64,000 nucleotides of DNA, taken from positions 248,001 through 312,000 of the forward strand of contig NZ_VOBR01000002.1 in the NCBI RefSeq assembly GCF_007845675.1. Direction: 5' to 3'. A program made the position numbers and the translations under genes. Source of the DNA: Lentzea tibetensis (GTDB lineage Bacteria > Actinomycetota > Actinomycetes > Mycobacteriales > Pseudonocardiaceae). Under the pieces are notes generated by a model. The model ran no database searches, was not told the origin of the DNA, and saw only the letters and a list, made by a program, of their open reading frames with translations. Shown here in pieces: positions 27,477 to 56,947 of this stretch; the stretch's first letter is position 1, and each line of letters starts with the position of its first letter.

Positions 27477-27516
27477 GCGGTTCGTCACCGGTTACGTAAC
27501 CGCGCCGCGCTACACC
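27477..27516. promoter_or_regulatory. weak SARP-like site in the C-domain/thioesterase divergent gap
   Basis: The palindrome GGTTACGTAACC (27490-27501) places one TAAC heptamer in each direction. Toward the thioesterase, TAACCGC is followed after 7 bp by TACACC (27511-27516), matching the geometry at the strong sites, but the upstream heptamer is poor. Toward the C-domain gene, TAACCGG is followed 11 bp later by GAACCGC, with no clear -10 at the expected place. It is probably a degenerate member of the same regulon. Confidence 0.4.
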
Positions 27517-27522
27517 CGCACG

Positions 27523-28260
27523 ATGAACCTGTTGACACCGAAGGAGAATCCGGACGCGCCGGTGCGGCTCGTGTGCTTCCCCAACGCGGGCTCCGGCGCG
27601 GCCGCGTACCGCGCGTTCGCGCCGCTGCTGGCGCCGGAGGTCGAGCTGACGATCGTGCGGCTGCCCGGCCGCGAGGCTCGGATCGCCGAGGAACCGCACC
27701 GGAAGCTCGGTGAGCTCGTGCCCGCGCTCGCGGACGAGCTGGCGCCGTGCCTGGACGTCGGCGCGCGAAGGCTCGCGTTCTTCGGGCACAGCATGGGCGC
27801 GCTGGTGGCGTTCGAGCTGGCCAGGCACCTGCGCCGCACCGGAGCCAGGCTGCCGGACAAGCTGGTCGTGTCCGGCAGGCCCGCGCCGCACGTGCCGTAC
27901 CCGCCGGGGTACGAATTCGTGCACGACCTGCCGGAGGACCGGCTGGTGCGACGGCTGCGCGGGTACGCGGGCACGCCGGACGAGCTGCTCGCGGACCCCG
28001 AGCTGCTGCGGATGTTCCTGCCCACGCTGCGGGCGGACTTCGAGGTCGTCGAGACCTACCGCCACCACCCCGAACCGCGGCTGCCGTGCGACATCGCCGC
28101 GTACGGCGGGCGCGCCGACGAGGAGGTGCCACCGGCGACCGTGGCGAGCTGGGCCGAGCACACCTCGGGCGCGTTCCGGCTGCGGCTCTTCGACGGCGGC
28201 CACTTCTACCTGGACGACGCCCGCTCCGAAGTCGCGAAGGCGGTCCTCACCGACGTGTGA
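27523..28260 (+). CDS. type II thioesterase
   Basis: 245 residues, alpha/beta hydrolase. The nucleophile elbow is FGHSMGAL with Ser90, and the catalytic His is in GGHFYLDD near the end; FPNAGSGA forms the oxyanion region. Stand-alone thioesterases of this type clear misprimed or stalled acyl groups from carrier proteins. The 28282-33309 NRPS has no terminal thioesterase and is convergent with it, ending 21 bp beyond its stop. This is the only one of the window's three thioesterases with the normal Ser nucleophile. Confidence 0.92.
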   Translation: MNLLTPKENPDAPVRLVCFPNAGSGAAAYRAFAPLLAPEVELTIVRLPGREARIAEEPHRKLGELVPALADELAPCLDVGARRLAFFGHSMGALVAFELARHLRRTGARLPDKLVVSGRPAPHVPYPPGYEFVHDLPEDRLVRRLRGYAGTPDELLADPELLRMFLPTLRADFEVVETYRHHPEPRLPCDIAAYGGRADEEVPPATVASWAEHTSGAFRLRLFDGGHFYLDDARSEVAKAVLTDV

Positions 28261-28281
28261 GGACCGCCTTCCCGGCAGGGG

Positions 28282-31200
28282 TCAGTTCCCGGCGACGGGA
28301 ACGCCTTCGAACTCCTCGTCCACCAGATCCGCGACGGCCTCGGCGAAGTCCACGATCCGCGGGTCCCGCGCCAGCTCCTCGGCGAGCTGCGCGCAGGTGG
28401 GCGTGGTGAACACGTCCCGCACGGACAACGCCACGTCGAACGTCTCGTTGAGCTTGTTCGCGAACCGCGTCCCGGTCAGCGAATCGCCGCCGAGCTGGAA
28501 GAAGTTGTCCCGCACGCCGACCGCGGGCAGCTCCAGCACCTCGGCGCACACCCCGGTCACCAGTGCCTCCAGCGGCCCGCACGCCACCGCGGTCTCGGAC
28601 ACGGCCACCTGCGCGGCGCGCGAGGTGAGCGCGAGCCGGTCGACCTTTCCGTTGCCGGTCAACGGGAACGCGTCCAGCGCGCGGACGTCCGCCGGCACCA
28701 TGTAGCCGGGCAGCTGCGACCGCAGGAACTCCTCGATCTCCGGCGACCCGACGACGAAGCACACCAGCCGCCTCGCCCCGCTCGCGGACTCGGGCGCGAC
28801 CACGACGCAGGACTGCACGTCCGGGTGGCGTTCCGCGCACGCCTCGATCTCACCGAGCTCGATGCGGTGCCCGTTGACCTGGACCTGGAAGTCGTCGCGA
28901 CCGAGGATCTCGATCGAGCCGTCCGGCAGGTAGCGCCCGAGGTCGCCGGTCGCGTACACCCGCTCGCCCGTCGACGGCAGCCGGAAGAACTTCTCCCTGG
29001 TCCGCTCGTCGTCGTGCCAGTAGCCGTGCGCGAGACCGACGTCGCTGCCGACCACGATCTGGCCCGGCACCCAGGTCGGACGGTCCTGCCAGCGCTGGTC
29101 GAGCACGTGGTAGCGGTGGTTGGTCATCGGCCTGCCGTACGGGATCGACGTCCACTCCGGCGAGATCTCGCCGATCGGATTGATCACCGACCAGCAGATC
29201 GTCTCGGTCGGCCCGCCGGAGCCGATCACCCGGACGTCCGGCGCCAGCGCGCGCAGCCGGTCCGGCAGCGTCAACGGGATCCAGTCGCCCGCCATCACGA
29301 CCGTGCGCAGCGAGTCCAGGTCTCCGGGGGAGGCGTCGTCGACGAGCAACTCGACCAGCGCGGGCACCGAGTTCCAGAAGGTGACACCGGTGCCGCGCAC
29401 CAGCTCCAGCCAGCGCGCGGGATCGGGCCGTTCGCTCGACTCCGGCACCACGGCGCAGCCACCGGCGGCGAGAACGCCGAACAGGTCGTACACGGACAGG
29501 TCGAAGTGCAGCCCGGAGATGGCGAACGCGCGGTCGTCCGGCCCGACCCCGAGCCGGGAGTTGATGTCGGACAGCATGTTCACCACACCGCGGTGGTCGA
29601 CCATCACGCCCTTGGGCCTGCCGGTCGAGCCGGAGGTGTAGATGACGTACGCGAGATCGGTGGGGGACTGGACGCTCTCCAGCTCCTCCTCCGGGAAGCC
29701 GGTGAAGTCGTCGACGGTGAACGTCCGGACGTCCTGCGGGAACTCGCGCAAACCCCGCTGTGTCAGGACGAACCGGACGTCGCCGTCACGCAGCAGGAAG
29801 CGCAGCCGCTCGTCGGGCACGGCCGGGTCGATCGGCAGGTAGGCCGCGCCGGAGGTGAGCACGCCGTACACCGCTGCGTACTGCTCCCACCCCTTCTCCA
29901 TGACGATCGCGACCAGCTCGTTCGGCCGTGCACCCGCCTCCCGCAGGCCGCGGCCGATCCGGGTGGCGCACCCGCGCAGCTCGGGGAACGTCAGCGTGCG
30001 ATCCGCGGCGATCACCGCAGGCCCGCCGGACGAGGGCAGCAACTCGTGCAACAGCACGGATGGCACCTCGGCGGCGGTCCGGTTCACATGGGCCCGCACG
30101 GCGAGGTCCGCACCCGGCACGAGCTCCGGCTGCTCGACGTGCCACTGCGCCTCGTCGTGGATCAGCCGCTCGATCAGCCGCACGTACGCGGCGAACATCG
30201 CGTCGATCAGGCCGGGCGGGAACATCGCGTCCAGGAAGTCCCACTTGAGGTGCAGGATTCCGTCGATCTCGCGGATCTGGAAGTCCAGCAGCACCTGCGG
30301 GGTCTGCGAGATGCCGTAGGTCTCCCTGCCCAGCGCGGACACCTGGCGTCGCGGTGGGTGGCCCAGCAGGCTCGTCACCACGATCGGCATGGCCGGCCGC
30401 AGCCCGGCGAACTGCCGCTGCCGCACCAGTTCCCGCAGCACCTGCACCCCGTTGAAGTGCCGGTGCTCCAGGTCGCTCCACATCTGCTCCTGGATGTCGC
30501 GCGCCCGCTCGGCGAACGTGCCGTCGGTCTTCTCGACCGCGACGAGCAGCGTGTTGGTGAAGTCGCCGAGCAACCGGTCGATCTCCGCGTGCATCGGCAG
30601 CCGGTCGAAGATGGGGAAGTTGATGGTGAAGCGGTCGTTCTTGCACCACGTCCGCAGCACCTCGGCGAACGCCGCGACGAGGATGCCCGACGGCGTCACG
30701 CCCGCCTTCTTCGCGCGCTCCTTCAAGCGGTCCCACTCGTCCGGCAGCACGTCGTGCGCGCGCCGGTCGAACTTCACCTCGCCCCGCGGGTTGGTCACCA
30801 TCGGCAGGTCCGGCGCGGCGGGCAGGTTCGGCACCCGCGACACCCAGTACTCGCGCGACCTGCGGTAGGCGTCGGAGTTTTCCAGCGCCGCCTTGGACTG
30901 CAGCACGTAGTCGCGGAACGTGATGTCCAACGGCGGTAGTTCATCGGAGTTGGATGCCGCCTCGGCTGGGGTACTCGCCTCGGCGGGCGGGTTCTCGTAG
31001 AGTTCGATCAGGTCAGGGAAGAGCACCTGGAACGCGCTCCAGGCATCCATGATCAGCAGGTCGATGCCGACGTGCAGGCGGACCTTCTCGTCGTCCAGCA
31101 GGGTGAGCCGGATGTCGTAGAGCGGCCAGCGGTCGGAGTCGAGCACCTGGTGTGACATCTCCTCGCGGGTCGCGAGCGCGTGCGCCTCGGCCTCGTCCGC

Positions 31201-33309
31201 GGGCAGATCACGCAGGTCGGCGACGCGGATGTCCTCGCCGTCGGTTTCGGGCAGCACCCGCTGCGTGCCGTCGGGCAGCACGACCGCGCGCAGCATGTCG
31301 TGGCGGCGCACCAGCTTCCGCCACGCTGCGCGGAACCGGTCGACGTCGAGCCCGTCGCGTTCCCACTCGAAGTAGCCGTGGCAGCCGACGTTGCCGAAGT
31401 CGACCGCGCTGCCGCGGCCGATCCACAGCGCCTGCTGGGTCTCGGTGAGCGGGAACGGCTCGTACCGAGCGGACTCGTCGGCCCGCACGGTGGGGAACTC
31501 CTCGGGCGCGATGCCCTGCGCGCGCAGCGTCTCGACCTTGCGCGCCACCTGCGCGATGCTCGGCGCCTGCACGAGATCGGTCAGGCCGAGCTCGACGTGC
31601 AGCTCGTCGGTGATCCGGCTGAGCAGCCTGATCGCGTTCAGCGAGTCGCCGCCGAGGTCGAAGAAGTTGTCCAGCACACCGACCTCGTCCATCGCCAGCA
31701 CGTCACCCCACACCGCGGCGAGCGCGCGTTCGAGGTCGTCACGCGGCTCGACCAGCTCGACGTCCAGCTCGGGGCGCGTGCGCGGAGGCGGCGGTAGCGC
31801 GGCGCGGTCGATCTTGCCGTTGGCCGAGATCGGCATGTCGTCGACGACGACCAGCACCGCGGGCACCATGTAGTGCGGCAGCTGCTGGCGCAACGCCTTG
31901 CGCACCGCGGCGAGCAGCGGCGGCGCGGTGCGGTCCGGCTCGACGTAGCCGACGAGCTTGCGCTCGCCCTCGACGTGCTCGTACGCCGTCACGGCGGACT
32001 GCCGCACACCGGGTTGCTGGGAGAGCACGGACTCGATCTCGCCGAGGTGCACGCGGTAGCCGCGGATCTTCACCTCGTTGTCGGTGCGGCCGACGACCTC
32101 GATGATCCCGTCCGGCCAGCGGCGCGCGACGTCACCGGTGCGGTAGAGCACCGGGTTCGGGTCGTCGTCCAAAGGGTTCGACAGGAACTTCTCGTCGTTG
32201 GCGTCGGGCCGGTTGAGGTAGCCCTGCGACAGGCTGGCGCCGGACACGAACAGCTCACCGGGCGTGCCGGTGGGCACGGGGTGGAACTCGTCGTCCAGCA
32301 CGTGGACCCGCACGCCGGGCACCGGCAGACCGACGGGAGGGGCCCGGTGCGCGCGTTCGTCGGCGGTGAGCGTGCGGCCGATGGCGGACAGGTTGCACGT
32401 CGTCACGACCGTCGCCTCGGACGAGCCGTAGACGTTGACGACCTCGAACGGCAGGTGGTCCGGCGGCCACGAGCGCAGCCGCTCACCCGCGATGCGGACG
32501 TTGCGCAGCTCGGTCTCCGCGGGCCAGTCCAGCGTCCAGGTGCGTTCCGCGGTCGCGGTGAGCAGCAGCGCGTGCGTCACCTCCTCGGCGACGAGCCACT
32601 GCTGCAGCGCGTCGGCCTTCGCGGCGATGTCGGACGCGGGGATGCACACCGTGCCGCCGGCGGCGAGCACGGGGAAGCAGTCGACCTCGACCAGTCCGGC
32701 ACCGGGGGAGGAGAGCCACGTGCCGCGCGTGCGATCGGTGATGCCGCACTGGTCGACGAGCGTGCCGATGAGCGTCCTCAGTGGACCGTGTCGCAGCAGT
32801 ACGGCCTTCGGGACGCCGGTGGAGCCGGAGGTGTAGGCGACGTGGCACACCGTGTCGTCGTCGACATCGGCGCCGGGGTTCACCTCGGGGGCGTTGCGCC
32901 ACTCGTCGCTCTCGGTCAGCACGACCGGGAACTCGCGGTCCAGGCTGATCCTGTTGAGCAGTTCCTCCCTGGTCACCAGCGCGACGGCTTCGGCGTTGTC
33001 CAGCATGAACGCCAGCCGCGCCTCCGGGTACTCGGGATCGAGCAGCACGACGGCGGCGCCGAGTTTGAAGATCGCGAGCTGGGCGACCAGGCTCGCGGTG
33101 CCGCGCTCCAGGCACAGTCCGACTCGGGAGCCCGCGGTCACACCGAGCGCGCGCAGGTGCTGCGCGAGCCGGTTCGCGAACCCGTCGAGGTGGGCGAAGT
33201 CGATCGCGGCCTTGTCGTGGCCGGTGTTCTGTTCGACGGCGACCGCGCGGGGATCACGGCGGGCCGCCTGCTCTACGAGCTCGTGGAAGTACAGCTGTCG
33301 TTCCGGCAC
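28282..33309 (-). CDS. NRPS: A-T-Cy-A-T
   Basis: 1675 residues. A1 (about 10-500) contains AYTSGSTGVPK, but the A4 region reads SSPGAGLVEVD, lacking the Asp that normally binds the alpha-amino group, so it may activate an aryl or beta-amino acid. T1 has Ser556 in LGGDSL. The next domain (about 610-1050) has DLLIMDAWS at 750-758, the DxxxxDxxS of heterocyclisation (Cy) domains. A2 (about 1065-1560) has the FDLSVYDLFG, FWNSVPAL and MAGDWIPLTLPDRL pattern of cysteine-activating domains in pyochelin/yersiniabactin-type enzymes. T2 has Ser1610. The predicted product is a thiazoline (or oxazoline) built on the A1 acid. There is no thioesterase or oxidase domain. GTG 33309 follows AAGGTGG; an earlier GTG at 33330 has no binding site. 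Confidence 0.9.
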   Translation of the reverse strand: MPERQLYFHELVEQAARRDPRAVAVEQNTGHDKAAIDFAHLDGFANRLAQHLRALGVTAGSRVGLCLERGTASLVAQLAIFKLGAAVVLLDPEYPEARLAFMLDNAEAVALVTREELLNRISLDREFPVVLTESDEWRNAPEVNPGADVDDDTVCHVAYTSGSTGVPKAVLLRHGPLRTLIGTLVDQCGITDRTRGTWLSSPGAGLVEVDCFPVLAAGGTVCIPASDIAAKADALQQWLVAEEVTHALLLTATAERTWTLDWPAETELRNVRIAGERLRSWPPDHLPFEVVNVYGSSEATVVTTCNLSAIGRTLTADERAHRAPPVGLPVPGVRVHVLDDEFHPVPTGTPGELFVSGASLSQGYLNRPDANDEKFLSNPLDDDPNPVLYRTGDVARRWPDGIIEVVGRTDNEVKIRGYRVHLGEIESVLSQQPGVRQSAVTAYEHVEGERKLVGYVEPDRTAPPLLAAVRKALRQQLPHYMVPAVLVVVDDMPISANGKIDRAALPPPPRTRPELDVELVEPRDDLERALAAVWGDVLAMDEVGVLDNFFDLGGDSLNAIRLLSRITDELHVELGLTDLVQAPSIAQVARKVETLRAQGIAPEEFPTVRADESARYEPFPLTETQQALWIGRGSAVDFGNVGCHGYFEWERDGLDVDRFRAAWRKLVRRHDMLRAVVLPDGTQRVLPETDGEDIRVADLRDLPADEAEAHALATREEMSHQVLDSDRWPLYDIRLTLLDDEKVRLHVGIDLLIMDAWSAFQVLFPDLIELYENPPAEASTPAEAASNSDELPPLDITFRDYVLQSKAALENSDAYRRSREYWVSRVPNLPAAPDLPMVTNPRGEVKFDRRAHDVLPDEWDRLKERAKKAGVTPSGILVAAFAEVLRTWCKNDRFTINFPIFDRLPMHAEIDRLLGDFTNTLLVAVEKTDGTFAERARDIQEQMWSDLEHRHFNGVQVLRELVRQRQFAGLRPAMPIVVTSLLGHPPRRQVSALGRETYGISQTPQVLLDFQIREIDGILHLKWDFLDAMFPPGLIDAMFAAYVRLIERLIHDEAQWHVEQPELVPGADLAVRAHVNRTAAEVPSVLLHELLPSSGGPAVIAADRTLTFPELRGCATRIGRGLREAGARPNELVAIVMEKGWEQYAAVYGVLTSGAAYLPIDPAVPDERLRFLLRDGDVRFVLTQRGLREFPQDVRTFTVDDFTGFPEEELESVQSPTDLAYVIYTSGSTGRPKGVMVDHRGVVNMLSDINSRLGVGPDDRAFAISGLHFDLSVYDLFGVLAAGGCAVVPESSERPDPARWLELVRGTGVTFWNSVPALVELLVDDASPGDLDSLRTVVMAGDWIPLTLPDRLRALAPDVRVIGSGGPTETICWSVINPIGEISPEWTSIPYGRPMTNHRYHVLDQRWQDRPTWVPGQIVVGSDVGLAHGYWHDDERTREKFFRLPSTGERVYATGDLGRYLPDGSIEILGRDDFQVQVNGHRIELGEIEACAERHPDVQSCVVVAPESASGARRLVCFVVGSPEIEEFLRSQLPGYMVPADVRALDAFPLTGNGKVDRLALTSRAAQVAVSETAVACGPLEALVTGVCAEVLELPAVGVRDNFFQLGGDSLTGTRFANKLNETFDVALSVRDVFTTPTCAQLAEELARDPRIVDFAEAVADLVDEEFEGVPVAGN

Positions 33310-33350
33310 GACATGTCCACCTTTCCGCACACGGATACCAGTGACGGCGC

Positions 33351-33425
33351 AACGTAGATCCGGCCAGTTAGCACCGGGTTACGCCTCAGGCCCATAACCC
33401 CTGGCTAACTGCGAGCTCCTACGGT
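33351..33425. promoter_or_regulatory. divergent SARP-type promoter pair (NRPS / ALDH operon)
   Basis: Plus direction: TAAC at 33395 and 33406 (11-bp period), then 7 bp after the second heptamer the -10 TACGGT (33420-33425). Minus direction: TAAC starting at 33381 and 33370 (11-bp period), then after 7 bp TACGTT (33356-33351). The two halves form a large imperfect dyad. The spacing matches the known SARP mode, where the repeat lies next to -10 and replaces a -35. Leaders of roughly 30 bases precede the start codons at 33461 and 33309. Confidence 0.8.
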
Positions 33426-33460
33426 CCGGCTACGAGCCGAGGGACGAGGAGGTGGTGGTC

Positions 33461-34687
33461 GTGAGCCCGACACTGGACACGGCCTCTCGCTTGGACGTCA
33501 TTTCCACGATCTGCCAACGGGTGCTGGACCGGGCGGCTGATCTGGAGGACGCCGCCGTGCGACTGCTTCCCTTCCCGCGGCAGGTGATCCGCGCGGACCT
33601 GGCGCTGGCGGCGAGCAGGCTGGAGGCGTTCGCGACGGTGACACCGCGGCTGGCCGGGCGCAGGCCGCTCGGCAGGGTCGCGCTCGCGTTGCCCGGCAAC
33701 GCGATTCTGAGCAATCCGCTCGCCACCATCGCGGCCTCGCACCTGGCGGGCAACAAGACGCTGGTGCGGATGCCGCGGCAACGGCGTGAATGGGCGGCCG
33801 TGCTCAGCGCGCTCGTCGGCGAGGCCGCCGAGTTCGTCGACTTCGGCGGCAGCGGGTTCATCGACCACGCCATGCGTCAGCCCGACGTGGACGCGATCAT
33901 GGTGTTCGGCGACGACAGCTGGGCCGCGGACTACGAGATGGTGGCCCGCACGACGGGGACGAAGTTCGTCTTCGAGGGACCGGGCAAGGACCCGTTCCTC
34001 GTGCTGTGCCCGGCACTCGTCGACGAGGCCGCGCGCGCCGCGGTCGAGGCGGGCATGTTCAACGCCGGACAGGCGTGCACCTCGCCGGAGCGCTTCTACG
34101 TCGTGCCCGCCGCCTACGACGACTTCGTGGAACGCGTCATCGACCTGGTGCGGGAGCTGAACGTCGGCGATCCCGACGACCCGCAGACCCAGATCGGGCC
34201 GCTGGCTCCCGTTGTCGCACACCGTCTCGACGCACAGGTGCGCGACGCCATCAGCAAGGGCGCCGTGGTGCTCAACACCGGGATGGCCCGCCCGATGACC
34301 GTCAACGGCGAGGAACGCGTCCTCGTGCCGCCGATCGTCGTCGCGGGCACCGACCACCGGATGACGTTGATGCGCGAGGAGACGTTCGGCCCGGTCATCG
34401 CGATCCAGCGCGCGGCGTCGATCCACGAGGCGCTGGAGCTCGCCGAGGACTCGCCGTACGGGCTGTCCGCGACGACGTTCGGCCGCGTCGAAGGCGTCGC
34501 GGAACGGCTGGTGCACAGCCACGGCCAGGTGTTCGCCGAACAGACCTGGCTGTCGCAGCGGCGCAGGCACCCGCTCGCGCCCTACGGCGGGCGCAGGCGG
34601 TCGGGCTGGGTGTGGGAGTGGCAGGACGAGCAGTTCGTCCGGCGCGACGGACCGCGACACAACTTTCTTGAGTTCAGCAGGATCTGA
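33461..34687 (+). CDS. aldehyde dehydrogenase family enzyme
   Basis: 408 residues, shorter than the ~480 usual for the family. The catalytic Cys is in MFNAGQACTSPERF. The Glu region reads KFVFEGPGKDPFLVL in place of the usual LELGGK, and the C-terminal EETFGPVIAIQ and SPYGLSATTF are normal. It would oxidise an aldehyde to an acid with NAD(P)+, or run in reverse on an activated acid. GTG 33461 follows AGGAGG at 8 bases; upstream GTGs at 33452 and 33455 overlap that site. First gene of the operon to 41431, probably making an unusual amino acid. Confidence 0.86.
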   Translation: MSPTLDTASRLDVISTICQRVLDRAADLEDAAVRLLPFPRQVIRADLALAASRLEAFATVTPRLAGRRPLGRVALALPGNAILSNPLATIAASHLAGNKTLVRMPRQRREWAAVLSALVGEAAEFVDFGGSGFIDHAMRQPDVDAIMVFGDDSWAADYEMVARTTGTKFVFEGPGKDPFLVLCPALVDEAARAAVEAGMFNAGQACTSPERFYVVPAAYDDFVERVIDLVRELNVGDPDDPQTQIGPLAPVVAHRLDAQVRDAISKGAVVLNTGMARPMTVNGEERVLVPPIVVAGTDHRMTLMREETFGPVIAIQRAASIHEALELAEDSPYGLSATTFGRVEGVAERLVHSHGQVFAEQTWLSQRRRHPLAPYGGRRRSGWVWEWQDEQFVRRDGPRHNFLEFSRI

Positions 34688-34701
34688 CAGGGAAGGCTGG
34701 C

Positions 34702-35868
34702 ATGCGCGACAACGACAACCTGGCGTTCACCGTGGACGAGTACCGGGAACGGCTGGACACCGTGCGCAAGGGAATGGCCGAGCGGGGTGTCGACATCGCC
34801 CTGGTCAGCGTTCCGGAGAACATCTACTACCTGACCGGCTACACCACGCTCGGGTACTACATGTACCAGGTGCTGATGGTGCCGATCGACGACGAGCCGC
34901 TGCTGCTCACCTACCGCGAGGAGCGCATCAACGTCGAACGCTTGTCCTGGTTGGACAGGCACGTCGACTACACGGTCACCGACGACCCGATCGCGGTTAC
35001 CGTCGACACCGTGCGCGGCCTCGGCGTCGCGGGCAGGACGCTCTCCATCGAGGAGGGCGGCTACTTCTTCCCGATCCGCACCTACCGCAGGCTCGTCGAG
35101 TCGCTCGGCGACGTGCGGTGGGTCGACGGGACCGGGCTCGTCGAGTCCGCCCGGCTGGTCAAGTCCGACGCCGAGCTGGGCTTCATCCGCCGCGCGGCCA
35201 CCGCCACGATGGCGGGCATGGTCGACGCGCTCGCCGAAGCGCGTCCCGGCAAGACGGAGAACGACGTCGCCGCGGCCGTCTACGCCGCGACGCTGCGGCA
35301 CGGCAGCGAGTATCCGGGCAGCCCGCCGTACGTGATCAGCGGCGAGCGCTCCGGACTGCCGCACGGCACCTGGGAGGGTCGTGAGCTGCGGGACGGCGAC
35401 ATCGTGTTCCTCGAGTTCTCCGGCTGCGTCAAGCGGTACAGCGCGGCCATGATGCGCACCGCGTTCCTCGGCACGCCGCCGCAGTCGGTGACGGGCCGCG
35501 CCACCGCGGTGGTCGACGCGCTGGAGACCGCGATCGCCACGATCCGGCCCGGCGCCACCTCCGGAGAGGTGGACGCGGCTGCTCGCAAGGCCATTGGCGC
35601 GCACGGCTTCGGCGACCACACGCACGAGACCGGCTACTCGATCGGCGTGTGCTACCCGCCCGGCTGGAACGAGAGCCACATCATGAACCTGCACCCCGGC
35701 GACGACACGGTGTTGCGGCCCAACATGGTCTTCCACCTGGTGCCGTCGCTGATCGTGCCCGAGTTGAACGGCCACGTCGGGTTCAGCGAGACCGTGGTCG
35801 TCACCGAGAACGGCTGCGAGGTGCTGACGGACAAGAGGGTGCCGCGCGAGCTGCAGGTGCTGTCGTGA
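34702..35868 (+). CDS. M24-family hydrolase, ectoine-hydrolase/creatinase-like
   Basis: 388 residues. Creatinase N-terminal domain (SVPENIYYLTGYTTLGYY) and a pita-bread M24 domain. The usual metal-binding Asp residues are changed: the first position reads LEFSG and the second SAAMMRT. This alteration is typical of the ectoine hydrolase (DoeA)-like branch rather than of aminopeptidases. The His in HETGYSIGV and the Glu in GHVGFSETVVV remain. It probably opens a cyclic amidine or hydrolyses an amide or C-N bond without acting as a peptidase. The ATG follows GGAAGG; its stop overlaps the next GTG by 4 bp. Confidence 0.82.
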   Translation: MRDNDNLAFTVDEYRERLDTVRKGMAERGVDIALVSVPENIYYLTGYTTLGYYMYQVLMVPIDDEPLLLTYREERINVERLSWLDRHVDYTVTDDPIAVTVDTVRGLGVAGRTLSIEEGGYFFPIRTYRRLVESLGDVRWVDGTGLVESARLVKSDAELGFIRRAATATMAGMVDALAEARPGKTENDVAAAVYAATLRHGSEYPGSPPYVISGERSGLPHGTWEGRELRDGDIVFLEFSGCVKRYSAAMMRTAFLGTPPQSVTGRATAVVDALETAIATIRPGATSGEVDAAARKAIGAHGFGDHTHETGYSIGVCYPPGWNESHIMNLHPGDDTVLRPNMVFHLVPSLIVPELNGHVGFSETVVVTENGCEVLTDKRVPRELQVLS

Positions 35869-37193
35869 GCGCGCTCGCCGTGCTCGGTGGCCGGCAGGCC
35901 GTGCCGGACGGCGTCGACGAGAGCCGCTGGCCGATGGTCGAGCCGAGCGACGTCGAGGCGGTCACCGACACGCTCCTCAGTGGACAGCTGAGCTGGCTCA
36001 ACGACACCAGGGTGCCCGCGCTGGAACGGAGATGGGCGGACTACGTCGGCGCGGATCACTGCATCGCGGTGAACAGCGGAACTGCGGCGCTGCACGCGGC
36101 CGTGGCCGCCGCGGGCGTCGGACCGGGCGACGAGGTGCTCGTGCCCTCGTTGAGCTTCCTCGCCTCCGCGTCGTGCGTGCTGCACCACCAGGGCATCCCG
36201 GTGTTCGTGGACATCGACCCCCGCACGTTCACGATCGACCCGGCGAAGCTGGGGGAGAAGCTCACCGACCGCACGAAGGCGATCATCGCGGTGCACCTGC
36301 ACGGCCTGCCCGCCGACATGGACCCGATCGTGCGGTTCGCCCGCGAGCACGACCTCGTCGTGATCGAGGACGCCGCGCAGGCGCACGCCGCCACCTACCG
36401 CGGCCGCCGCACCGGATCGCTCGGCGACCTGGCGGCGTTCAGCGTGATGGCCGGCAAGAACCTCGCCACCGCGGGGGAAGGCGGTCTGCTCACGACGTCG
36501 TCGGCGCACCTGCGCAACCGCGCGGACGCGGTGAAGATGTTCGGCGAGAGGATCGGCGCCGACGGCAGCCGCGACTACAACGCGCACACGATGGGCTGGA
36601 ACTACCGGCTCAGCTCGATCGTCGCCGCGTTCACGTGCACGCAGATCGACCGGCTCGACGGCTACACGGCCGAGGTTCAAGAGGGCGCGCGGGCGCTGAC
36701 CAAGGCGCTGGCCGACGTGCCCGGTGTGGCGCCACCGCACGTGCCCGACGACCGCACGCACGTCTACCACCACTTCCGCGTGCTGCTGGACGGAGCGGTC
36801 GCCGGCCTGCCGAACGGCGTGTTCCGCCAGGCCGTCCACGACGCGTTGCTGGCCGAGGGCGTCCCGGTCACCGAGTACCAGAACCGGCCGCTGCCGGGAC
36901 AGACGCTGTTCCAGCAGAAGACCGGCTACGGGCAGGGTTGTCCGTGGACGTGCGGCAAGACGACCCGTGACCACACCTACCGCGTCGAGGACTACCCGGA
37001 GACCTTGGAGGTCATCCGGTCCTCGCTCGTGGTCGGCAAACGACTGTGCATGGCGTCGTTGCGCGACCCGGACTCCGTCGAGCGCTACCGCGACGCGTTC
37101 ACCAAGGTCCTTTCGAACATCGACGAGCTGCGCGAGTACGCGTCGACGATCGACTACGTCGAGCCGTGGCAGCGGGAAAGCAGGTTGTGGTGA
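35865..37193 (+). CDS. DegT/DnrJ/EryC1/StrS-family PLP aminotransferase
   Basis: 442 residues from GTG 35865, which overlaps the preceding stop (GTGA). Hallmarks are LSWLNDTRVPALERRW, AVNSGTAALHAAVAAAGVGPGDEVLVPS, the Asp that pairs with the PLP nitrogen in VIEDAAQAHAATYRGRRTGSLG, and the Schiff-base Lys in SVMAGKNLATAGEGG. Family members aminate keto sugars, inosose rings or the AHBA precursor with glutamine or glutamate. It is longer than typical sugar aminotransferases, and its C-terminal part has GCPWTCGKTTRDH, an unusual Cys pair. In this operon it probably aminates a ketone made by transketolase or alcohol dehydrogenase action. Confidence 0.9.
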   Translation: MSALAVLGGRQAVPDGVDESRWPMVEPSDVEAVTDTLLSGQLSWLNDTRVPALERRWADYVGADHCIAVNSGTAALHAAVAAAGVGPGDEVLVPSLSFLASASCVLHHQGIPVFVDIDPRTFTIDPAKLGEKLTDRTKAIIAVHLHGLPADMDPIVRFAREHDLVVIEDAAQAHAATYRGRRTGSLGDLAAFSVMAGKNLATAGEGGLLTTSSAHLRNRADAVKMFGERIGADGSRDYNAHTMGWNYRLSSIVAAFTCTQIDRLDGYTAEVQEGARALTKALADVPGVAPPHVPDDRTHVYHHFRVLLDGAVAGLPNGVFRQAVHDALLAEGVPVTEYQNRPLPGQTLFQQKTGYGQGCPWTCGKTTRDHTYRVEDYPETLEVIRSSLVVGKRLCMASLRDPDSVERYRDAFTKVLSNIDELREYASTIDYVEPWQRESRLW

Positions 37194-38338
37194 ACTTCTT
37201 CCACCTCGTGCCGCAGGTCCACTACGGACCCGGCTCGGCGACGCGGGCCGGTGCCGCGCTGCGCGATCTCGGTGTCCGCCACGTGCTGGTGGTGACGGAC
37301 CAGGGCGTGCTGGACGCGGGCGTGATCGACCCGGTGCTGAAGTCGGTCAAGGACGCGGGCATCGCGTTCACGGTCTTCTCCGACCTCCGCACGAACCCGA
37401 CCGAACAGCACGTCGCCGCGGCGGCCTACCTGTACCAGTCCGTCGGGTGCGACGGCATTCTCGGCGTCGGCGGCGGAAGCTCGCTCGACGTGGCCAAGTC
37501 CGCGGCCGTGATCATCGCCGACGGTGGCCGCATCACGTCCTACGAGGACGGTGCGCGTGCCGTGACCGGGACGCCTCCGCCGCTGGTGCAGGTGCCCACG
37601 ACGGCGGGAACCGGCAGCGAGGTCGTCGCGGGCGCGATCATCACCGACAGCAGCCGGATGTTCAAGATGCACGTCGTCGCCGTGCCCGCGCAGGTCGCGC
37701 TGTGCGACCCCGAGCTGACGCTGACGTTGCCCGCGGGGCCGACGGCGGCCTCCGGGATCGACGCGCTGGCACACGCGATCGGCGCCTACACCTCCAGCGA
37801 ACGCCAGCCGCTCGCCGACGCCATGGCGGTGCACGCGATCGCGCTGATCCGCCGCTGGCTGCCCGACGCGGTGGCGCGCGGGGACGACTTGCGCGCACGC
37901 GACCAGATGATGACCGGCGCGCTGGCCGCGGGCATCTCGATGAAGGGCGGCGGCGCCGCGGACCACGCGTTCGCCCACGCCGTCAACGCGCTCTTCGACG
38001 TGCACCACGGCGTGGGCGTCGCACTGTTCCTCGCCGACGCCATGGAGCACAACCTGCCGCACATGCCGGACCGCTTCGCCGTCGTGGCGCGCGCACTCGG
38101 CGTGCGGTCCGCGACGGACGACGCGATCGCGCTGGGCCGGGCGGGCATCGAGGTCGTCCGCTCGCTGGTCGCCGACTGCCCCATCCCGACCCTGCCCGCG
38201 ATCGGCGTGACGGAGAACGACGTGCCCGCACTCGTGGACAAGGTCCAGTCCGACGGCTTCCACCTCGGGCTCAACCCCGTGCCGGTCACGGTGGACGACA
38301 CCCGCCGCATCCTGCACACCGCACTTGCGAGGTCGTGA
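37190..38338 (+). CDS. iron-containing (group III) alcohol dehydrogenase, copy 1
   Basis: 382 residues. NAD-binding GVGGGSSLDVAKSAAV, the family stretch PTTAGTGSEVVAGAII, and the metal ligands Asp/His in GIDALAHAIGAYTS, then His in ADHAFAHAVNA and VHHGVGVA. It interconverts an alcohol and an aldehyde or ketone with NAD(P). A second, clearly related enzyme is at 49150-50196. GTG 37190 overlaps the aminotransferase stop (GTGA); a GTG one codon earlier is also open. Confidence 0.9.
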   Translation: MNFFHLVPQVHYGPGSATRAGAALRDLGVRHVLVVTDQGVLDAGVIDPVLKSVKDAGIAFTVFSDLRTNPTEQHVAAAAYLYQSVGCDGILGVGGGSSLDVAKSAAVIIADGGRITSYEDGARAVTGTPPPLVQVPTTAGTGSEVVAGAIITDSSRMFKMHVVAVPAQVALCDPELTLTLPAGPTAASGIDALAHAIGAYTSSERQPLADAMAVHAIALIRRWLPDAVARGDDLRARDQMMTGALAAGISMKGGGAADHAFAHAVNALFDVHHGVGVALFLADAMEHNLPHMPDRFAVVARALGVRSATDDAIALGRAGIEVVRSLVADCPIPTLPAIGVTENDVPALVDKVQSDGFHLGLNPVPVTVDDTRRILHTALARS

Positions 38339-41431: not shown

Positions 41432-41459
41432 CCGGTCCCTAACTCCGCACGCCTAGGTT
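41429..41459 (+). promoter_or_regulatory. SARP-type promoter of the C-T/aminotransferase operon
   Basis: TAAC at 41429 and 41440 (11-bp period), then exactly 7 bp after the second heptamer the -10 TAGGTT (41454-41459). The first repeat overlaps the stop codon of the upstream gene, so the operon starting at 41495 has its own regulated promoter. The ribosome binding site GAGGAGGAACC precedes GTG 41495. Confidence 0.78.
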
Positions 41460-43315: not shown

Positions 43316-43326
43316 AGGAGGTAGCA

Positions 43327-46672: not shown

Positions 46673-47481
46673 ACGACCTCGCCGAGAAGGCACGAATGCT
46701 GCGCAAGCACGTCGTGCACCTGGCAGCCGACTCGCCCGGCGCGCACGTCGGCGGCTCGATGTCGGCCGTGGAGATCCTGACCGCGCTGTACTTCGACGGC
46801 GTGCTGCGGGTCGACCCGGCCAACCCGTCCGCTCCCGACCGGGATCGGCTCATCTTCAGCAAGGGCCACTCCAGCGCGGCCTACTACGCCGCGCTGGCCG
46901 AGGCGGGCTTCTTCCCGGTGTCCGAACTGGACACCTACAAGAAGACGGGCAGCAGGCTCGCCGGCCACCCGCACACCGGCATTCCCGGTGTCGAGCTCGC
47001 CACCGGCTCACTCGGCCACGGCCTGCCGGTCGGCGTCGGCCTCGCCATGGCCGCGTCGGCCGACCGCTCGCCCGGCAGGGTGTTCGTGATCGTCGGCGAC
47101 GGCGAGTGCCAGGAGGGCTCGATGTGGGAGGCCGCGATGGCCGCCGCCCACTACGGACTCGACAACCTGGTCGTGATCGTCGACCGCAACGGCATCCAGG
47201 AGGACGGGCCGACCGAGGAGATCATGGCGTTGGAGCCGTTCGCCGACAAGTGGCGCGCGTTCGGCTGGGCGACCGTCGAGGTCGACGGGCACGACGTCGG
47301 TGAGCTCAGCACCGTGCTGCACGAGGTGCCGCTCACCTGGGGCAGGCCGACGGTCGTCATCGCGAAGACGGTGAAGGGCAAGGGTTTGTCGTTCTCCGAG
47401 AACACGAACACCTGGCACTACGGGCACCTCTCGGAGGAACTGAAGGAGCAGGCGCTGCGGGAGCTGGGAGGTGTGCGATGA
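46666..47481 (+). CDS. transketolase N-terminal subunit
   Basis: 271 residues. Thiamine diphosphate domain: HVGGSMSAVEILTALYF, FSKGHSSAAYYAALAEAG, GSLGHGLPVGVGLA, and the metal/diphosphate motif VGDGECQEGSMWEAAMAAAHYGLDNLVVIVDRN. The partner C subunit follows with a 4-bp overlap, and another C subunit lies at 38338. Transketolases move a ketol unit (hydroxyacetyl) between sugar and aldehyde. ATG 46666 follows GGGAGGAAC; a GTG one codon later would give a GTGA overlap. Confidence 0.92.
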   Translation: MVNDLAEKARMLRKHVVHLAADSPGAHVGGSMSAVEILTALYFDGVLRVDPANPSAPDRDRLIFSKGHSSAAYYAALAEAGFFPVSELDTYKKTGSRLAGHPHTGIPGVELATGSLGHGLPVGVGLAMAASADRSPGRVFVIVGDGECQEGSMWEAAMAAAHYGLDNLVVIVDRNGIQEDGPTEEIMALEPFADKWRAFGWATVEVDGHDVGELSTVLHEVPLTWGRPTVVIAKTVKGKGLSFSENTNTWHYGHLSEELKEQALRELGGVR

Positions 47482-48440
47482 CGGCGCTGGCCGACATCCG
47501 GGAGGGGCTGCGGTTCGACCCGGCCACCACGACCGCGTTCGAGGCGTGCCGGATGGCGCAGCTCGACCTGGCGCTCGAGGACCCGCGCATCGTCTCCGTC
47601 GAGGCCGACCTCGGCGACTGCTGGGGCCTGAAGTTCCGCGAGTCCCTGCCGGACCGCTTCCTCGACTTCGGCATCGCCGAGGCGAGCGCGGTGGGCGCGG
47701 CCGCGGGGCTGGCGATGGCGGGCAAACGCCCGTTCCTCAACACGTTCGGCACGTTCGCGCTGATGCGCGCGGCCGAACAGGTGCGCCTCGACATCTGCTA
47801 CCACCGGGCGCCGGTGGTGATCGCGGGCATGTTCACCGGCATCGCGGCCGGGTTCTCCGGCCCGACGCACCACGCGATCGAGGACGTCTCGGTGGCCAGG
47901 GCGCTGCCGAACCTCACCGTCATCGCACCGGCGGACGCCCTGCAGGCCTACGACGCCACCAGGGCCGCGCTGGAGCACAACGCGCCGGTGTACCTGAGGC
48001 TCGGGGTGGAGCCCGGCCCCCAGGTCTACGCGGGCCACGACCGGTTCGAGATCGGCCGCGGCCGCGTGCTGCGCGAAGGAGGATCGCTCACGATCGTCAC
48101 GTGCGGCGTGACGATCGTGCCGGAGGTGCTCGCCGCTGCCGACCGGCTCGGTGACGTGCGGGTCGTCGACATGCCGACGATCAAGCCGATCGACCGCGAG
48201 CTGCTCAGGCAGTCGGCCGAGCGGACCGGCCGGGTCGTCACGGTCGAGGAGCACTCGACGATCGGCGGGCTGGGCAGCGCGGTCGCGGAGGTGCTGGCCG
48301 AGGACGCGCCGGTGCCGTTGCGGATGATCGGGCTGCCGGACGCCTTCGTGAAGGAGATCGGCGACTACGCCGAACAGTTGCGGCGCCACGGGTTGGACGC
48401 GGCCGGGATCGAGCGGGAGGTGCGGGCGTGGGCGTACTAG
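47478..48440 (+). CDS. transketolase C-terminal subunit, copy 2
   Basis: 320 residues. FGIAEASAVGAAAGLAMAG holds the catalytic Glu, and GPTHHAIEDVSVARALPNLTV the substrate-binding His pair. Clear paralogue of the 38338-39291 protein, which differs more in its N-terminal 60 residues. It directly follows the only N subunit (ATGA overlap), so this is its obvious partner; the other C subunit may compete for the same N subunit. Confidence 0.92.
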   Translation: MTALADIREGLRFDPATTTAFEACRMAQLDLALEDPRIVSVEADLGDCWGLKFRESLPDRFLDFGIAEASAVGAAAGLAMAGKRPFLNTFGTFALMRAAEQVRLDICYHRAPVVIAGMFTGIAAGFSGPTHHAIEDVSVARALPNLTVIAPADALQAYDATRAALEHNAPVYLRLGVEPGPQVYAGHDRFEIGRGRVLREGGSLTIVTCGVTIVPEVLAAADRLGDVRVVDMPTIKPIDRELLRQSAERTGRVVTVEEHSTIGGLGSAVAEVLAEDAPVPLRMIGLPDAFVKEIGDYAEQLRRHGLDAAGIEREVRAWAY

Positions 48441-49153
48441 GAATCCTCATGCTGGAGGGGAAGATGGCTGACGTGCCGGGCTGCATGGCGTCGGCGGAGA
48501 CCTTCCCGTACCCCGTGATCCGCCACGTCGTGCGGGGCTCGCGCACGCCGCGCAGCCAGGAGGAGGCCGAAGCCATGCTGCCGCTGTACGTCGCGGCGGC
48601 GCGCGAGCTGGAGGCCGAGGGCGCCACGGTGATCACCGCCAACTGCGGGCTCATCGCGTTGCTGCAGAACGAGCTGGCGGCCGCGGTCCGGGTGCCCGTG
48701 GTGACGTCCAGCCTGACCATGGTGCCGGCGATCAGGAAACTGGTCGGCGAGCGGCCGGTCGGCGTGCTCACGTTCTTCACCTCGGCGGTGGGAGAGCGCA
48801 ACTTCCGCGCCAGCGGCTGGAGCTCCGCCGACATCCCGGTCGTGCTCGGTGGCGTCGGCGAACACGCGTCGTGGCTCGAGTTCCTGGAGACCAAGGAGGT
48901 CACGCCGCGGCTGCGTGAACGGATGCGCGCGGACCTGCTCGCCGTCGTCGAGGACATGCTGGCGCGCGAACCCGAGCTCGGCGCGATCGTCTGCGAGTGC
49001 ACGATGCTGCCCGCCGTGCTGGACGACGTGCGGGCCGGTGTCCCCGTGCCGATCTTCGACATCCTGACCGCGCTGGACTGGGCGGTCAGCGGGTTCGAGC
49101 GACCCGCCGCGGCGAACACCCGGCTCGCGGTCTCGGGAGGTCGAGTGCGATGA
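48428..49153 (+). CDS. Asp/Glu-racemase-superfamily protein
   Basis: 241 residues. The two-domain racemase fold shows its two active-site cysteines in ITANCGLIALLQNE and in IVCECTMLPAVLDD, the cofactor-independent pair used by aspartate/glutamate/hydantoin racemases and maleate isomerases. It could set the configuration of an amino acid or isomerise an intermediate. GTG 48428 overlaps the preceding gene by 13 bp. Confidence 0.85.
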   Translation: MGVLGILMLEGKMADVPGCMASAETFPYPVIRHVVRGSRTPRSQEEAEAMLPLYVAAARELEAEGATVITANCGLIALLQNELAAAVRVPVVTSSLTMVPAIRKLVGERPVGVLTFFTSAVGERNFRASGWSSADIPVVLGGVGEHASWLEFLETKEVTPRLRERMRADLLAVVEDMLAREPELGAIVCECTMLPAVLDDVRAGVPVPIFDILTALDWAVSGFERPAAANTRLAVSGGRVR

Positions 49154-50196
49154 GACTGCGCCTGCCGCCCAGTGTGCGGTTCGGCGCCGGATCCATCACC
49201 CACCTCTCCGACTCCCTGAGGGAGTGCGGTGTGCGGCGAGCACTCGTGGTCACCGACCACGGAGTGCTCGCCGCTGGTGTTGTGGAGAGGGTCCGTGCCG
49301 AGCTCGACGTCCCGCACGACGTCTTCGTCGCTGGGCGACCCACGGCCGACCAGGTCACCGCGTGCGGCTCTGCGCTGGACGGAGCCGACGGGGTCGTCGC
49401 CGTCGGTGGGGGCAGCGTCATCGACGTCGCCAAGGCGGCGGTGGCGCTGCGCAGTGCGGGGACACGGCTCCAGGACGTCTACGGACTCGACAGGGTGCTC
49501 GGAACGGCCCTACCGGTCATCGCGGTGCCCACGACACCGGGCAGCGGCGGCGAGGTCTCCTCCCACGCGGTCGTGACCGATCAGGGCAAGCGGCACGCCG
49601 TGAGCGGAGCCTGCCTGGTGCCGCGCGCGGCCGTCATCGATCCAACGCTGGCCGAGTCCCTACCGCGCGACGCCACGGTCGCGTGCGCGCTCGACGCGTT
49701 GATGCACGGCGCCGAGGCCTACCTGGCCCGCGCCGCGACGCCGTTCAGCGACGCGCTGGCGCTGCCGGGCGTGCGCCGGATCGCGGCGGCCCTGCCGTCG
49801 CTGGATCGCCACGAGCTGAGCCTCGGCTGCCTGCAGGCGAACCTGGCGATGGCACAGGCCAACGCCGGCCTCGTGCACGCGCTGGGCTACCCGCTCACCG
49901 AACGGCACGGCGTCGTGCACGGCATCGCCAACGCCCTCGTCGCGCCCGCGGTGCTGCGGGCCAGCAGGCACGCGCAGGAACAGCGGGACAGCGACCTCGC
50001 GGAATGCCTTGGCGCACCGGAGTTCGCCGACGGCCTCACGTTGTTGCTCGAGCGCGTCGGCGTCCCACTCGGTCTGCCCGTCTGCGACCCGGACGAACTC
50101 GCCTGCGATGCACTGCACTACGGACCCGTGCGCGCCAACTGGAGGTTCGAGGCCACTGTGGACGACATAGCCGCGATGTACCGCGCATCGATGTGA
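49150..50196 (+). CDS. iron-containing alcohol dehydrogenase, copy 2
   Basis: 348 residues. AVGGGSVIDVAKAAVAL (NAD), VPTTPGSGGEVSSHAVV, and metal ligands in ALDALMHGAEAYLA, HALGYPL and HGVVHGIANA. Shorter than copy 1 and clearly divergent from it. It probably reduces or oxidises the product of the adjacent transketolase. ATG overlaps the racemase stop by 4 bp. Last gene of the operon, followed by a strong terminator. Confidence 0.88.
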   Translation: MRLRLPPSVRFGAGSITHLSDSLRECGVRRALVVTDHGVLAAGVVERVRAELDVPHDVFVAGRPTADQVTACGSALDGADGVVAVGGGSVIDVAKAAVALRSAGTRLQDVYGLDRVLGTALPVIAVPTTPGSGGEVSSHAVVTDQGKRHAVSGACLVPRAAVIDPTLAESLPRDATVACALDALMHGAEAYLARAATPFSDALALPGVRRIAAALPSLDRHELSLGCLQANLAMAQANAGLVHALGYPLTERHGVVHGIANALVAPAVLRASRHAQEQRDSDLAECLGAPEFADGLTLLLERVGVPLGLPVCDPDELACDALHYGPVRANWRFEATVDDIAAMYRASM

Positions 50197-51717: not shown

Positions 51718-51804
51718 CTTGGACTCCCGTGGGACTGTTGAAAAACGGGTCTACTCCAGGAAACCTCCCCGGGGTTACCCCGTCCAACAACAATCACTCC
51801 TCAC

Positions 51805-51832
51805 TTGACAACCAACGGTTGTTACCCAAGAT
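51805..51832 (+). promoter_or_regulatory. promoter/operator for a probably leaderless LysR message
   Basis: TTGACA (51805-51810) and CAAGAT (51827-51832), 16 bp apart, would start transcription at or next to the ATG at 51839, so the mRNA may be leaderless. A perfect dyad ACAACC-AAC-GGTTGT (51808-51822) overlaps this promoter and is the probable operator for the LysR protein, also near the divergent MFS gene. Confidence 0.5.
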
Positions 51833-51838
51833 GAACCA

Positions 51839-52777: not shown

Positions 52778-52800
52778 CCGCGCGGTGCCACGATGGGGTG

Positions 52801-53472: not shown

Positions 53473-53496
53473 ACCGACTTCTCGGGGGAGGGGATC

Positions 53497-55564: not shown

Positions 55565-55565
55565 C

Positions 55566-56072: not shown

Positions 56073-56074
56073 GG

Positions 56075-56836
56075 TCAACCCCTGAAGTCCTTCTCGACGA
56101 CCTCCTGCAGCTCGGCAGGAGCCTCGAGGAACGTCAACTTGTCTCCGGGCAGCACGTGGTGCGTGACCGGCCCGCACTCCTGCCACACTCCCATCTCGGC
56201 GGGCGGCACGTCGGCGTCGTCGGACCAGCCGATCGTGCTGATCGGACAGCCCGTCGGCGCCAGTGCGGGCGCGTAGCCGAAGCACATCTCCAGGTCGGAG
56301 CGCAGCACCCGCAACGCGAGCGGCAGCAGGTCCGGGTGCAGGTCGGTGCCGCCGACCGTGCGCGACACCCGGCTCACCTCGTCGGCGAGCTGCTCCTCGG
56401 TCATCGACGGGTGGTACACGCCGACCGCGCCGGGTGCCGGCATCCGGTACCGCCTGTCCGGCGGCCAGTGCGGGACCCGTGACGACGAGACGAACAGCCG
56501 CTCGGGCTGCCGGACGTCGCGCGAGCGCAGCTCGGTGACCAGTGCGTGGGCCAGGATCGAGCCCATGCAGTGACCGAAGACGGCGTACGGCCGGTCGAGG
56601 TGGTCCGCCAGCGCGTCGGCCGCGTCGGCCGCGAACGCGGGGAAGTCCCCGTACGCCGGTTGCCCGATGCGGTTCTCCCGGCCGGGCAGTTGCAGCGGGC
56701 AGACCTCCAGCGGCCCGATGTGCGACGGCCACCTGCGGAACACCGACGCGCCCACCCCGCTGTAGGGCAGGCAGAAGAGCCGGGCTTCCGCCTCGGGCGA
56801 CGGATCGCGCAGCAGCCACTTGGTCCGTTGCGACAT
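56075..56836 (-). CDS. type II thioesterase with Cys nucleophile, left cassette
   Basis: 253 residues, alpha/beta hydrolase. LFCLPYSGVGASVFRRWPSHIG and PLQLPGRENRIGQPAYGDF are typical. The nucleophile elbow is FGHCMGS: Cys90 replaces the usual Ser. The catalytic His is probably in PVTHHVLPG. Close paralogue of the 57186 protein, which has the same Cys. In NikP2-like systems the thioesterase releases the hydroxylated amino acid from the carrier. ATG 56836 follows GGAGGAACGC. First gene of the left cassette. Confidence 0.9.
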   Translation of the reverse strand: MSQRTKWLLRDPSPEAEARLFCLPYSGVGASVFRRWPSHIGPLEVCPLQLPGRENRIGQPAYGDFPAFAADAADALADHLDRPYAVFGHCMGSILAHALVTELRSRDVRQPERLFVSSSRVPHWPPDRRYRMPAPGAVGVYHPSMTEEQLADEVSRVSRTVGGTDLHPDLLPLALRVLRSDLEMCFGYAPALAPTGCPISTIGWSDDADVPPAEMGVWQECGPVTHHVLPGDKLTFLEAPAELQEVVEKDFRG

Positions 56837-56871
56837 GCGTTCCTCCGGTGAGCCGGGTCGGTGAGCAACGG

Positions 56872-56947
56872 AACCTACGGACGCCCAGTTAGCACGGGGT
56901 TACGCCCGGCCAGGCATAACCCCGTGCTAACCCACCGCTCGTAGGTT
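56872..56947. promoter_or_regulatory. symmetrical divergent SARP-type promoter of the two cassettes
   Basis: GTTAGCACGGGGTTA (56888-56902) and TAACCCCGTGCTAAC (56917-56931) are perfect 15-base inverted copies. Each holds two TAAC heptamers 11 bp apart. On each side, 7 bp after the outer heptamer, lies an identical -10 TAGGTT (56942-56947 on plus; 56877-56872 on minus). The whole 76-bp element is mirror-symmetrical, so one activator system would drive both cassettes equally. Confidence 0.85.

Follow-up and report, generated by a model that had tools for sequence, protein, structure and literature searches.

We analysed a 64,000-nt stretch of the Lentzea tibetensis genome (contig NZ_VOBR01000002.1, positions 248,001 to 312,000), here called the window, in which tandem TAAC repeats recur in front of the genes of a nonribosomal peptide synthetase (NRPS) cluster. 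By Pfam and NCBIfam scans this cluster spans ~26.3 to 65.5 kb in window coordinates (~39 kb). It encodes a 1682-aa NRPS, separate condensation (C), condensation-peptidyl carrier (C-PCP) and adenylation-peptidyl carrier (A-PCP) proteins, MbtH, thioesterases (TE), P450s and a capreomycidine-synthase-like pyridoxal phosphate (PLP) enzyme, along with a split transketolase, iron-type alcohol dehydrogenases (Fe-ADHs), an anthranilate-synthase-like enzyme and an MFS pump. A first-pass annotation, made from the letters alone, had placed a gene for a Streptomyces antibiotic regulatory protein (SARP) at 21497, and domain scans agree: the minus-strand gene at 21497..22312 encodes a small SARP of 271 aa, with an OmpR-type DNA-binding domain (Trans_reg_C, 2.9e-7) followed by a BTAD domain (1e-17), and relatives that include AfsR and EmbR. 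This protein is our proposed reader of the repeats.

The same annotation had marked five promoters of the form TAAC-N7-TAAC-N10-TANNNT, and all five were recovered at the coordinates and on the strands it gave. Site A- occupies 33351..33381 on the minus strand (TAACCCGGTGCTAACTGGCCGGATCTACGTT), A+ 33395..33425 on the plus strand (TAACCCCTGGCTAACTGCGAGCTCCTACGGT, with the −10 hexamer TACGGT), B+ 41429..41459 on the plus strand (TAACCGGTCCCTAACTCCGCACGCCTAGGTT), C- 56872..56902 on the minus strand (TAACCCCGTGCTAACTGGGCGTCCGTAGGTT) and C+ 56917..56947 on the plus strand (TAACCCCGTGCTAACCCACCGCTCGTAGGTT). In every one the repeats have an 11-bp period and the −10 follows 7 bp past the second heptamer; the first repeat reads TAACC and the second TAACY in 5/5. 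Chance accounts poorly for such a set: with up to one mismatch allowed, the window gave five matches, while 100 shuffles averaged 0.01, with a largest count of 1 and none that reached five. In the whole 9.36-Mb genome the exact pattern matched these five places only, all in the cluster, and the reversed pattern matched none; the motif is thus not equally common before unrelated genes.

Each site directly precedes a gene or gene run for which it is the predicted promoter. Site A- would drive the NRPS gene (28282..33330, minus strand; two A, two PCP and one C stretch). Site A+ would drive a plus-strand run at 33452..41431 that begins with an aldehyde dehydrogenase (AldDH) gene at 33452 and continues with M24, DegT, Fe-ADH, M20 and leucyl-tRNA synthetase (LeuRS)-editing-like genes. 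Site B+ lies before the plus-strand run at 41495..50196, comprising C-PCP (from 41495), the capreomycidine-synthase-like PLP enzyme, a borderline GNAT, an acyl-AMP ligase, the split transketolase, an Asp/Glu racemase family member and an Fe-ADH. Site C- is assigned to the thioesterase (56075-56836) and P450 genes, and C+ to the MbtH, TE, A-PCP and P450 run at 56976..60860 on the plus strand. These gene assignments come from domain scans, and the operon extents are predictions.

Sites and SARP keep company within the genus. The SARP was found at E ≤ 1e-30 in four of 25 Lentzea genomes (G000, which is the present one, G001, G012 and G020), at 82–88% identity, and these four alone among the 25 had at least two TAACC/TAACT tandem sites, although the cluster is split over two contigs in G012. 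A tight pattern with one mismatch found a match in 10 of the 25; the other six had one match each, five of the TTACCGTCGG type and one other. Cluster comparison covered the four SARP-carrying genomes, the remaining 21 being searched for SARP and motif. Common to the four are most genes between 26.3 and 65.5 kb, and also a module in which the SARP, a UbiA-family prenyltransferase, a histidine kinase and a response regulator are neighbours; in each of the four the SARP gene lies to the side of the cluster. The P450/thioesterase pair at 54365-56836 is missing at E ≤ 1e-10 or has only distant counterparts in G001 and G012; the same is true of the LeuRS-like gene in G001 and G020, and of M20 in G012, where the contig ends.

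When the regions were aligned by their flanking genes, the other three genomes were seen to retain the TAAC, TAAC and −10 core at 13 of the 15 places compared. The cores of A-, A+ and C+ persist in 4/4 Lentzea, and across these three sites 33/33 core columns were invariant versus 23/60 other columns. (A separate count of 55/55 invariant core columns is circular and is no evidence, since those sites were chosen by matching that core.) G020 has lost site B, and G001 site C-. Site C- persists in G020, where the TE/P450 genes are present; in G012, where these genes have no close counterparts, it is found in the equivalent position. In G020 the C-PCP gene abuts M20 where site B is gone, as would be expected if C-PCP were there read from upstream.

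The association extends beyond Lentzea. SARP homologues were found in 18 of 391 family genomes and in 4 of 393 others in a class-wide draw, at a cut-off (E ≤ 1e-50) of our own choosing, which we count with the objections gathered below. The loose exact pattern occurs in 71 of the 391, mostly as other, single-copy families. We therefore fixed a window-derived flavour, TAACC-N5-CTAACY-N9-TANNNT, from the five window sites, and did so after the loose-pattern results had been seen. Outside the four Lentzea it is present in 8/14 SARP-positive genomes (G031, G066, G068, G237, G238, G239, G240 and G246) and in 0/373 SARP-negative ones (Fisher 2.6e-13). The table behind this test was built from 27 loose-pattern rows; the four SARP-positive Lentzea are not in it, and neither are the recurring single-copy families, whose sequences are unable to match the flavour. 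In G066, G068, G237, G238 and G240 the motif lies 2–19 kb from the SARP gene. The annotation had guessed at a tie between SARP and repeats from geometry; the distribution of both, within Lentzea and across the family, supports it.

Searches in regions chosen by SARP alone gave the same picture. A weight matrix trained only on 18 Lentzea sites scored 19 hits of at least 15 bits in the 14 such regions (543,198 bp), versus 2 for the reversed matrix; 20 control regions, hand-picked round coordinates in eight of those 14 genomes (400,000 bp), gave 1. In the L. tibetensis genome itself, a further 30 SARP-type genes with 102 kb of surrounding sequence gave no weight-matrix hit, and the reversed matrix gave 1. 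Pairs of TAACY/[TGC]AACY in the 14 regions peaked sharply at period 11, with 17 pairs, while none of the other periods between 7 and 30 had more than 5; TANNNT stood at exactly N10 in 11 of the 17 and in none at other periods. De novo, with no sequence assumed, 18 four-mers recurred after 11 bp and had a −10 at the corresponding offset; 12 of them were AACC. Of 29 site rows set against open reading frame starts, 23 lie 1–72 nt before a start, three 149–317 nt before one, and three have none nearby (one is inside a frame); the starts come from a crude caller that favours those after a −10, and one G246 site is counted twice at an apparent contig-end overlap. These rows include extra regions (G246b, G239b and a G031 extension) that were chosen for known hits and are not in the 14-region test. 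Downstream genes in other genera include MbtH, NRPS, MFS and P450 genes. As an aside on the G246 contig C1 (L111, L155), its last 9.3 kb begins with the contig's first 40 bases without being fully identical, probably an untrimmed circular overlap.

We consider it highly likely that the pathway activator of this NRPS cluster is the small SARP, as one of a clade whose heptamer is of TAACC type and lies across the −35 with the spacing usual for SARPs. SARP repeats are spaced 11 or 22 bp apart, with the 3′ repeat 8 bp from the −10 (PMC10936776; this and the other articles cited are represented here by excerpts). The 11-bp spacing is found at all five window sites and recurs elsewhere as the period-11 peak, and the 3′ repeat keeps a fixed offset from the −10 in other genomes too. 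AfsR occupies two 11-bp repeats side by side across the −35 and touches both sigma region 4 and core RNA polymerase (PMC10936776). By analogy, two protomers of the small SARP at 21497 would sit side by side on two TAACCNN heptamers, one helical turn apart, over the −35 of each run, and would hold RNA polymerase at the weak −10 (TANNNT) 7 bp downstream, as AfsR does on a different repeat. In a HMMER alignment the base-contacting residues T88 and R92 of AfsR fall on V74 and G78 of this SARP (position 78 is G, A, S or T in homologues), a change that makes a different repeat plausible. The histidine kinase and response regulator would probably control the SARP through a box of their own between SARP and UbiA, so that a signal would pass from kinase and response regulator to SARP and on to the cluster.

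Several findings weigh against this reading. The distance from repeat to −10 is 7 bp in the TAACNNN frame, compared with 8 in the published rule. In Lentzea, the loose exact pattern has one match each in two SARP-negative genomes (G013, G021). In a weight-matrix scan of the window no site of at least 9 bits was found at the SARP, UbiA-kinase-response regulator, MFS, LysR or nitrile hydratase units. The annotation's claim that the motif predicts cluster extent and operon structure therefore holds in part: most biosynthetic gene runs are covered once the degenerate sites and the two palindromic pairs described below are added, but those units are not. The SARP's own unit being among them, the SARP is probably not self-controlled through the TAAC code. 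Motif matches lie ~20–50 kb from the SARP in G031 (42 kb) and in G246 (across contig ends), and in G239 the window-type matches are on another contig than the SARP, the site 2 kb from the SARP being of TAACT type. Three of the eight genomes share cluster genes with the window (G240 and G031: chorismate enzyme, ligase, FMN reductase, TE, MFS; G068: TE, A-PCP, P450), so the eight are not fully independent. Six of the 18 SARP-positive genomes lack the exact window-derived code. Two of the six, G035 and G038, have degenerate sites; the four others, all of genus g11 (G116, G137, G176, G186), have a SARP homologue of 54–60% and no site of at least 15 bits within 20 kb on either side of it, and three of them (G116, G137, G186) hold the complete module. 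A search for another 11-bp repeat code found no match in six site-poor genomes, and only singletons in the four of g11.

Another protein could in principle bind the repeats. The NarL/LuxR-type response regulator (24620..25264, plus strand) adjoins the SARP, is conserved with the cluster in the four Lentzea and belongs to the complete module in 8 of the 14 other SARP-positive genomes. Yet G237, G239 and G068 have sites near the SARP, and G246 has sites of 15–17 bits, with no response-regulator orthologue found in the fetched regions; response-regulator-like hits in G237 and G239 reach only 33–34%, and the G246 region is cut at the contig start. Conversely, G116, G137 and G186 have the response regulator and no sites of at least 15 bits. 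There is moreover a separate conserved element between SARP and UbiA, and the layout of the sites, 11-bp tandem repeats whose offset from the −10 is constant, is that of a SARP (PMC10936776). That the response regulator rather than the SARP binds the TAAC repeats is, in our judgement, improbable.

We give still less credence to two others, about equally. A PhoP-type OmpR response regulator encoded elsewhere might read the sites as 11-bp repeat boxes, given that PhoP and AfsR can share direct-repeat sites (PMC10972967). TAACC is, however, unlike the Pho box GTTCACC (PMC7040171), whose repeat the site sequences do not match; a global regulator should also have sites elsewhere, whereas no exact one occurs in the rest of the 9.36-Mb genome, and the co-occurrence with the SARP speaks against such a reader. 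The sites might otherwise be promoters of an alternative or extracytoplasmic function (ECF) sigma factor, with the first TAAC as −35; ECF −35 elements typically contain AAC. Against this highly unlikely reading stand the two similar repeats 11 bp apart, the second 10 bp from the −10, and co-occurrence that is with the SARP; in the subset of open reading frames whose proteins were scanned, sigma region 4 gave only weak overlap from LuxR-type domains. Least probable of all is binding by the LysR regulator at 51839-52777: it lies inside the conserved cluster, but none of the 14 other SARP neighbourhoods contained a LysR hit at E ≤ 1e-10, and LysR sites have a different layout from these.

Variants of the sites also occur in the cluster. 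The range marked in the first-pass annotation begins at 27477, and the site there, which reads leftward from 27494, is degenerate with a poor −10. This site E- (27464..27494, minus strand; TAACCGG-N4-GAACCGC, weak −10 GACCCT) precedes the condensation-domain gene at 26282..27457 on the minus strand. It scores 13.5 bits in the window and 12.6–14.1 bits in the other three Lentzea, with TAACC/GAACC kept in 4/4. The annotation had overlooked a sixth site, found with the tighter pattern and up to two mismatches as the sole added place, in a search where the reversed control also had 1 match in the genome. It lies on the minus strand at G000:C22:312897-312927 (L036:897-927; 64927 in window terms), 0.9 kb outside the window and directly before a flavin mononucleotide (FMN) reductase gene, with 7 nt from −10 to ATG. 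Closely spaced after this gene on the same strand are genes for a PaaK-type ligase and the anthranilate-synthase-like enzyme (61487..63872 within the window, minus strand), the run ending inside the window; the ligase probably starts beyond it, at 64214, in frame. The motif thus pointed to a gene run that starts outside the window.

Both places share a palindrome. GGTTACGTAACC occurs only twice in the genome, at 27490..27501 and 64923-64934 (L036:923-934), each time between divergent cluster genes: C and TE (27523..28260, plus strand) at 27.5 kb, FMN reductase and PfpI at 64.9 kb. It is unchanged in 4/4 Lentzea genomes. At the first copy the plus strand reads TAACCGC-N7-TACACC, 6 nt before the ATG at 27523. 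More generally, its outward TAACC heptamers stand 7 bp before a −10-like hexamer, often weak (TACACC, CATCCT, CACGCT, TAGCCT), with a start codon ~6–7 nt on. A second repeat, GAACC, follows 11 bp on at the C side in 4/4 Lentzea and at the FMN-reductase side in G000 and G020, and where present it is the repeat 7 bp from the −10. These details of layout were read by eye from the alignment, and statistics cover only the genome count of GGTTACGTAACC. The palindrome is possibly a second operator layout of the TAACC code, as judged from sequence. Single-heptamer promoters would be unusual, because PimR needs two heptamers to bind (PMC5930380).

The recurring module beside the cluster comprises the SARP, the UbiA-family prenyltransferase (22489..23460), a HisKA_3 histidine kinase (23532..24623) and the response regulator, the last three on the plus strand and identified by Pfam and synteny. 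Between SARP and UbiA lies an inverted repeat, GGTCGTAG-N5-CTACGACC (22416..22436), mostly conserved in the four Lentzea, which is a candidate response-regulator operator. In other genera a related box, CTACGAC-NTTNGTRACA, accompanies the SARP: it immediately precedes the gene in G066, G116, G137 and G038, is ~2 kb away in G176, and occurs at ~9 kb from it in G116, G137 and G186. Such a distinct element is a better candidate target for the response regulator than the TAAC repeats. Of the 14 other SARP-positive genomes, 8 have the whole module (21497-25264 in the window); the gene clusters around it differ, apart from the gene sets that G240, G031 and G068 share with the window. One could go further and picture the module as an autonomous signalling unit, passed from one kind of cluster to another within this actinobacterial family. 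The product of the UbiA enzyme would be a prenyl signal in the membrane, sensed by the kinase; the response regulator would then switch on the SARP, whose portable TAACC code would have two operator grammars: tandem repeats for one promoter, and the abutting palindrome GGTTACGTAACC for two divergent, nearly leaderless promoters. We regard this larger scheme as doubtful.

Two other regulators were considered for the cluster and rejected: a large ATP-binding LuxR-family (LAL) gene at 16202 and a large SARP gene beyond the window (L036:9402-12665); the regions fetched from the other three Lentzea showed neither of them. APH and DUF3267 genes were likewise not found there. Within the cluster, 53497-54368 encodes a nitrile hydratase alpha subunit (above the cut-off) and an accessory-like protein, 90–92% conserved; a full beta subunit was not among the proteins scanned. 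A leucyl/valyl-tRNA synthetase editing-domain stretch at 40316-41431 sits in an NRPS gene run, with 68% identity in G012 and no counterpart found in G001 or G020. Relatives of the AldDH gene occur in L. aerocolonigenes NBRC 13195, L. indica PSKA42 and Lentzea sp. NBRC 105346, with a more distant one in Amycolatopsis acidicola.

Other promoter-like families surfaced in these searches. TAACACGGCGGTAACGTTTTG... (many g11 genomes) and TAACGAGAACATAAC... and TAACTTCCGCGTAACAC... (other families, one place per genome) fit the loose pattern and not the window flavour, and were not counted. TAACACGGCGGTAACGTTTTGTRCCTAAGTT and close variants, at one place per genome in many g11 species, form a distinct, strongly conserved promoter-like element. 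Seven Lentzea have, at one place per genome, a TTACCGWCGGCTAACC-N9-TASGTT-like promoter (L041, L042, L043, L046, L047, L056, L058), perhaps another tandem-repeat activator site.

To our knowledge, SARP heptamer specificity has been worked out for few proteins only, mostly from Streptomyces. Here genome sequences by themselves yielded a code for one clade outside Streptomyces, and its background is very low (0/373 SARP-less family genomes). The code could delimit clusters, and has already pointed to genes beyond the window; where clusters in Lentzea and related genera are silent, it could show which activator to overexpress, and it could help test how recognition-helix residues set SARP specificity. 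A repeated tag of this kind could thus help map and switch on silent antibiotic clusters.

The DNA preference of this SARP family appears to be a previously undescribed specificity in a known regulator family. The known SARP heptamers include the TCGAG type, from which the annotation had already set the TAAC heptamer apart; it differs also from GTCAGSS, CGTTYATCG and CGGCAAG. A TAAC-type SARP heptamer was not found in the literature searched, which covered few subscription journals; in the excerpts available, the string TAACC belongs to primers in PMC7480387 and to a −10 box and a primer in PMC6283541. A Streptomyces SARP-like site, TTGCAGT-N10-TTGCAGT, is a double repeat also found de novo and attributed to a SARP, but with another heptamer and spacing and at one operon (PMC12224297). 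The operators of PimR, a SARP-LAL regulator, share heptameric direct repeats with 4-bp spacers, one monomer binding each heptamer; they differ in the heptamer (CGGCAAG), in having three repeats or 10-bp units, in a main operator off the −35 and in the large ATP-binding regulator itself (PMC5930380). PapR2/RedD-type SARPs are likewise cluster-situated and have heptameric direct repeats with 4-bp spacers, but their consensus is GTCAGSS (PMC7040171). AfsR of Streptomyces coelicolor differs in being large, with NOD and TPR domains, and in its repeat CGTT(T/C)ATCGNN, whereas the window SARP is small, with TAACCNN and V74/G78. Homology between the two SARP domains is nonetheless detectable (E 1.7e-9), and at the afs box AfsR provides a model for how the Lentzea protein would bind and activate: two 11-bp direct repeats overlapping the −35, protomers side by side, a weak −10 and activation of secondary metabolism (PMC10936776, PMC10972967).

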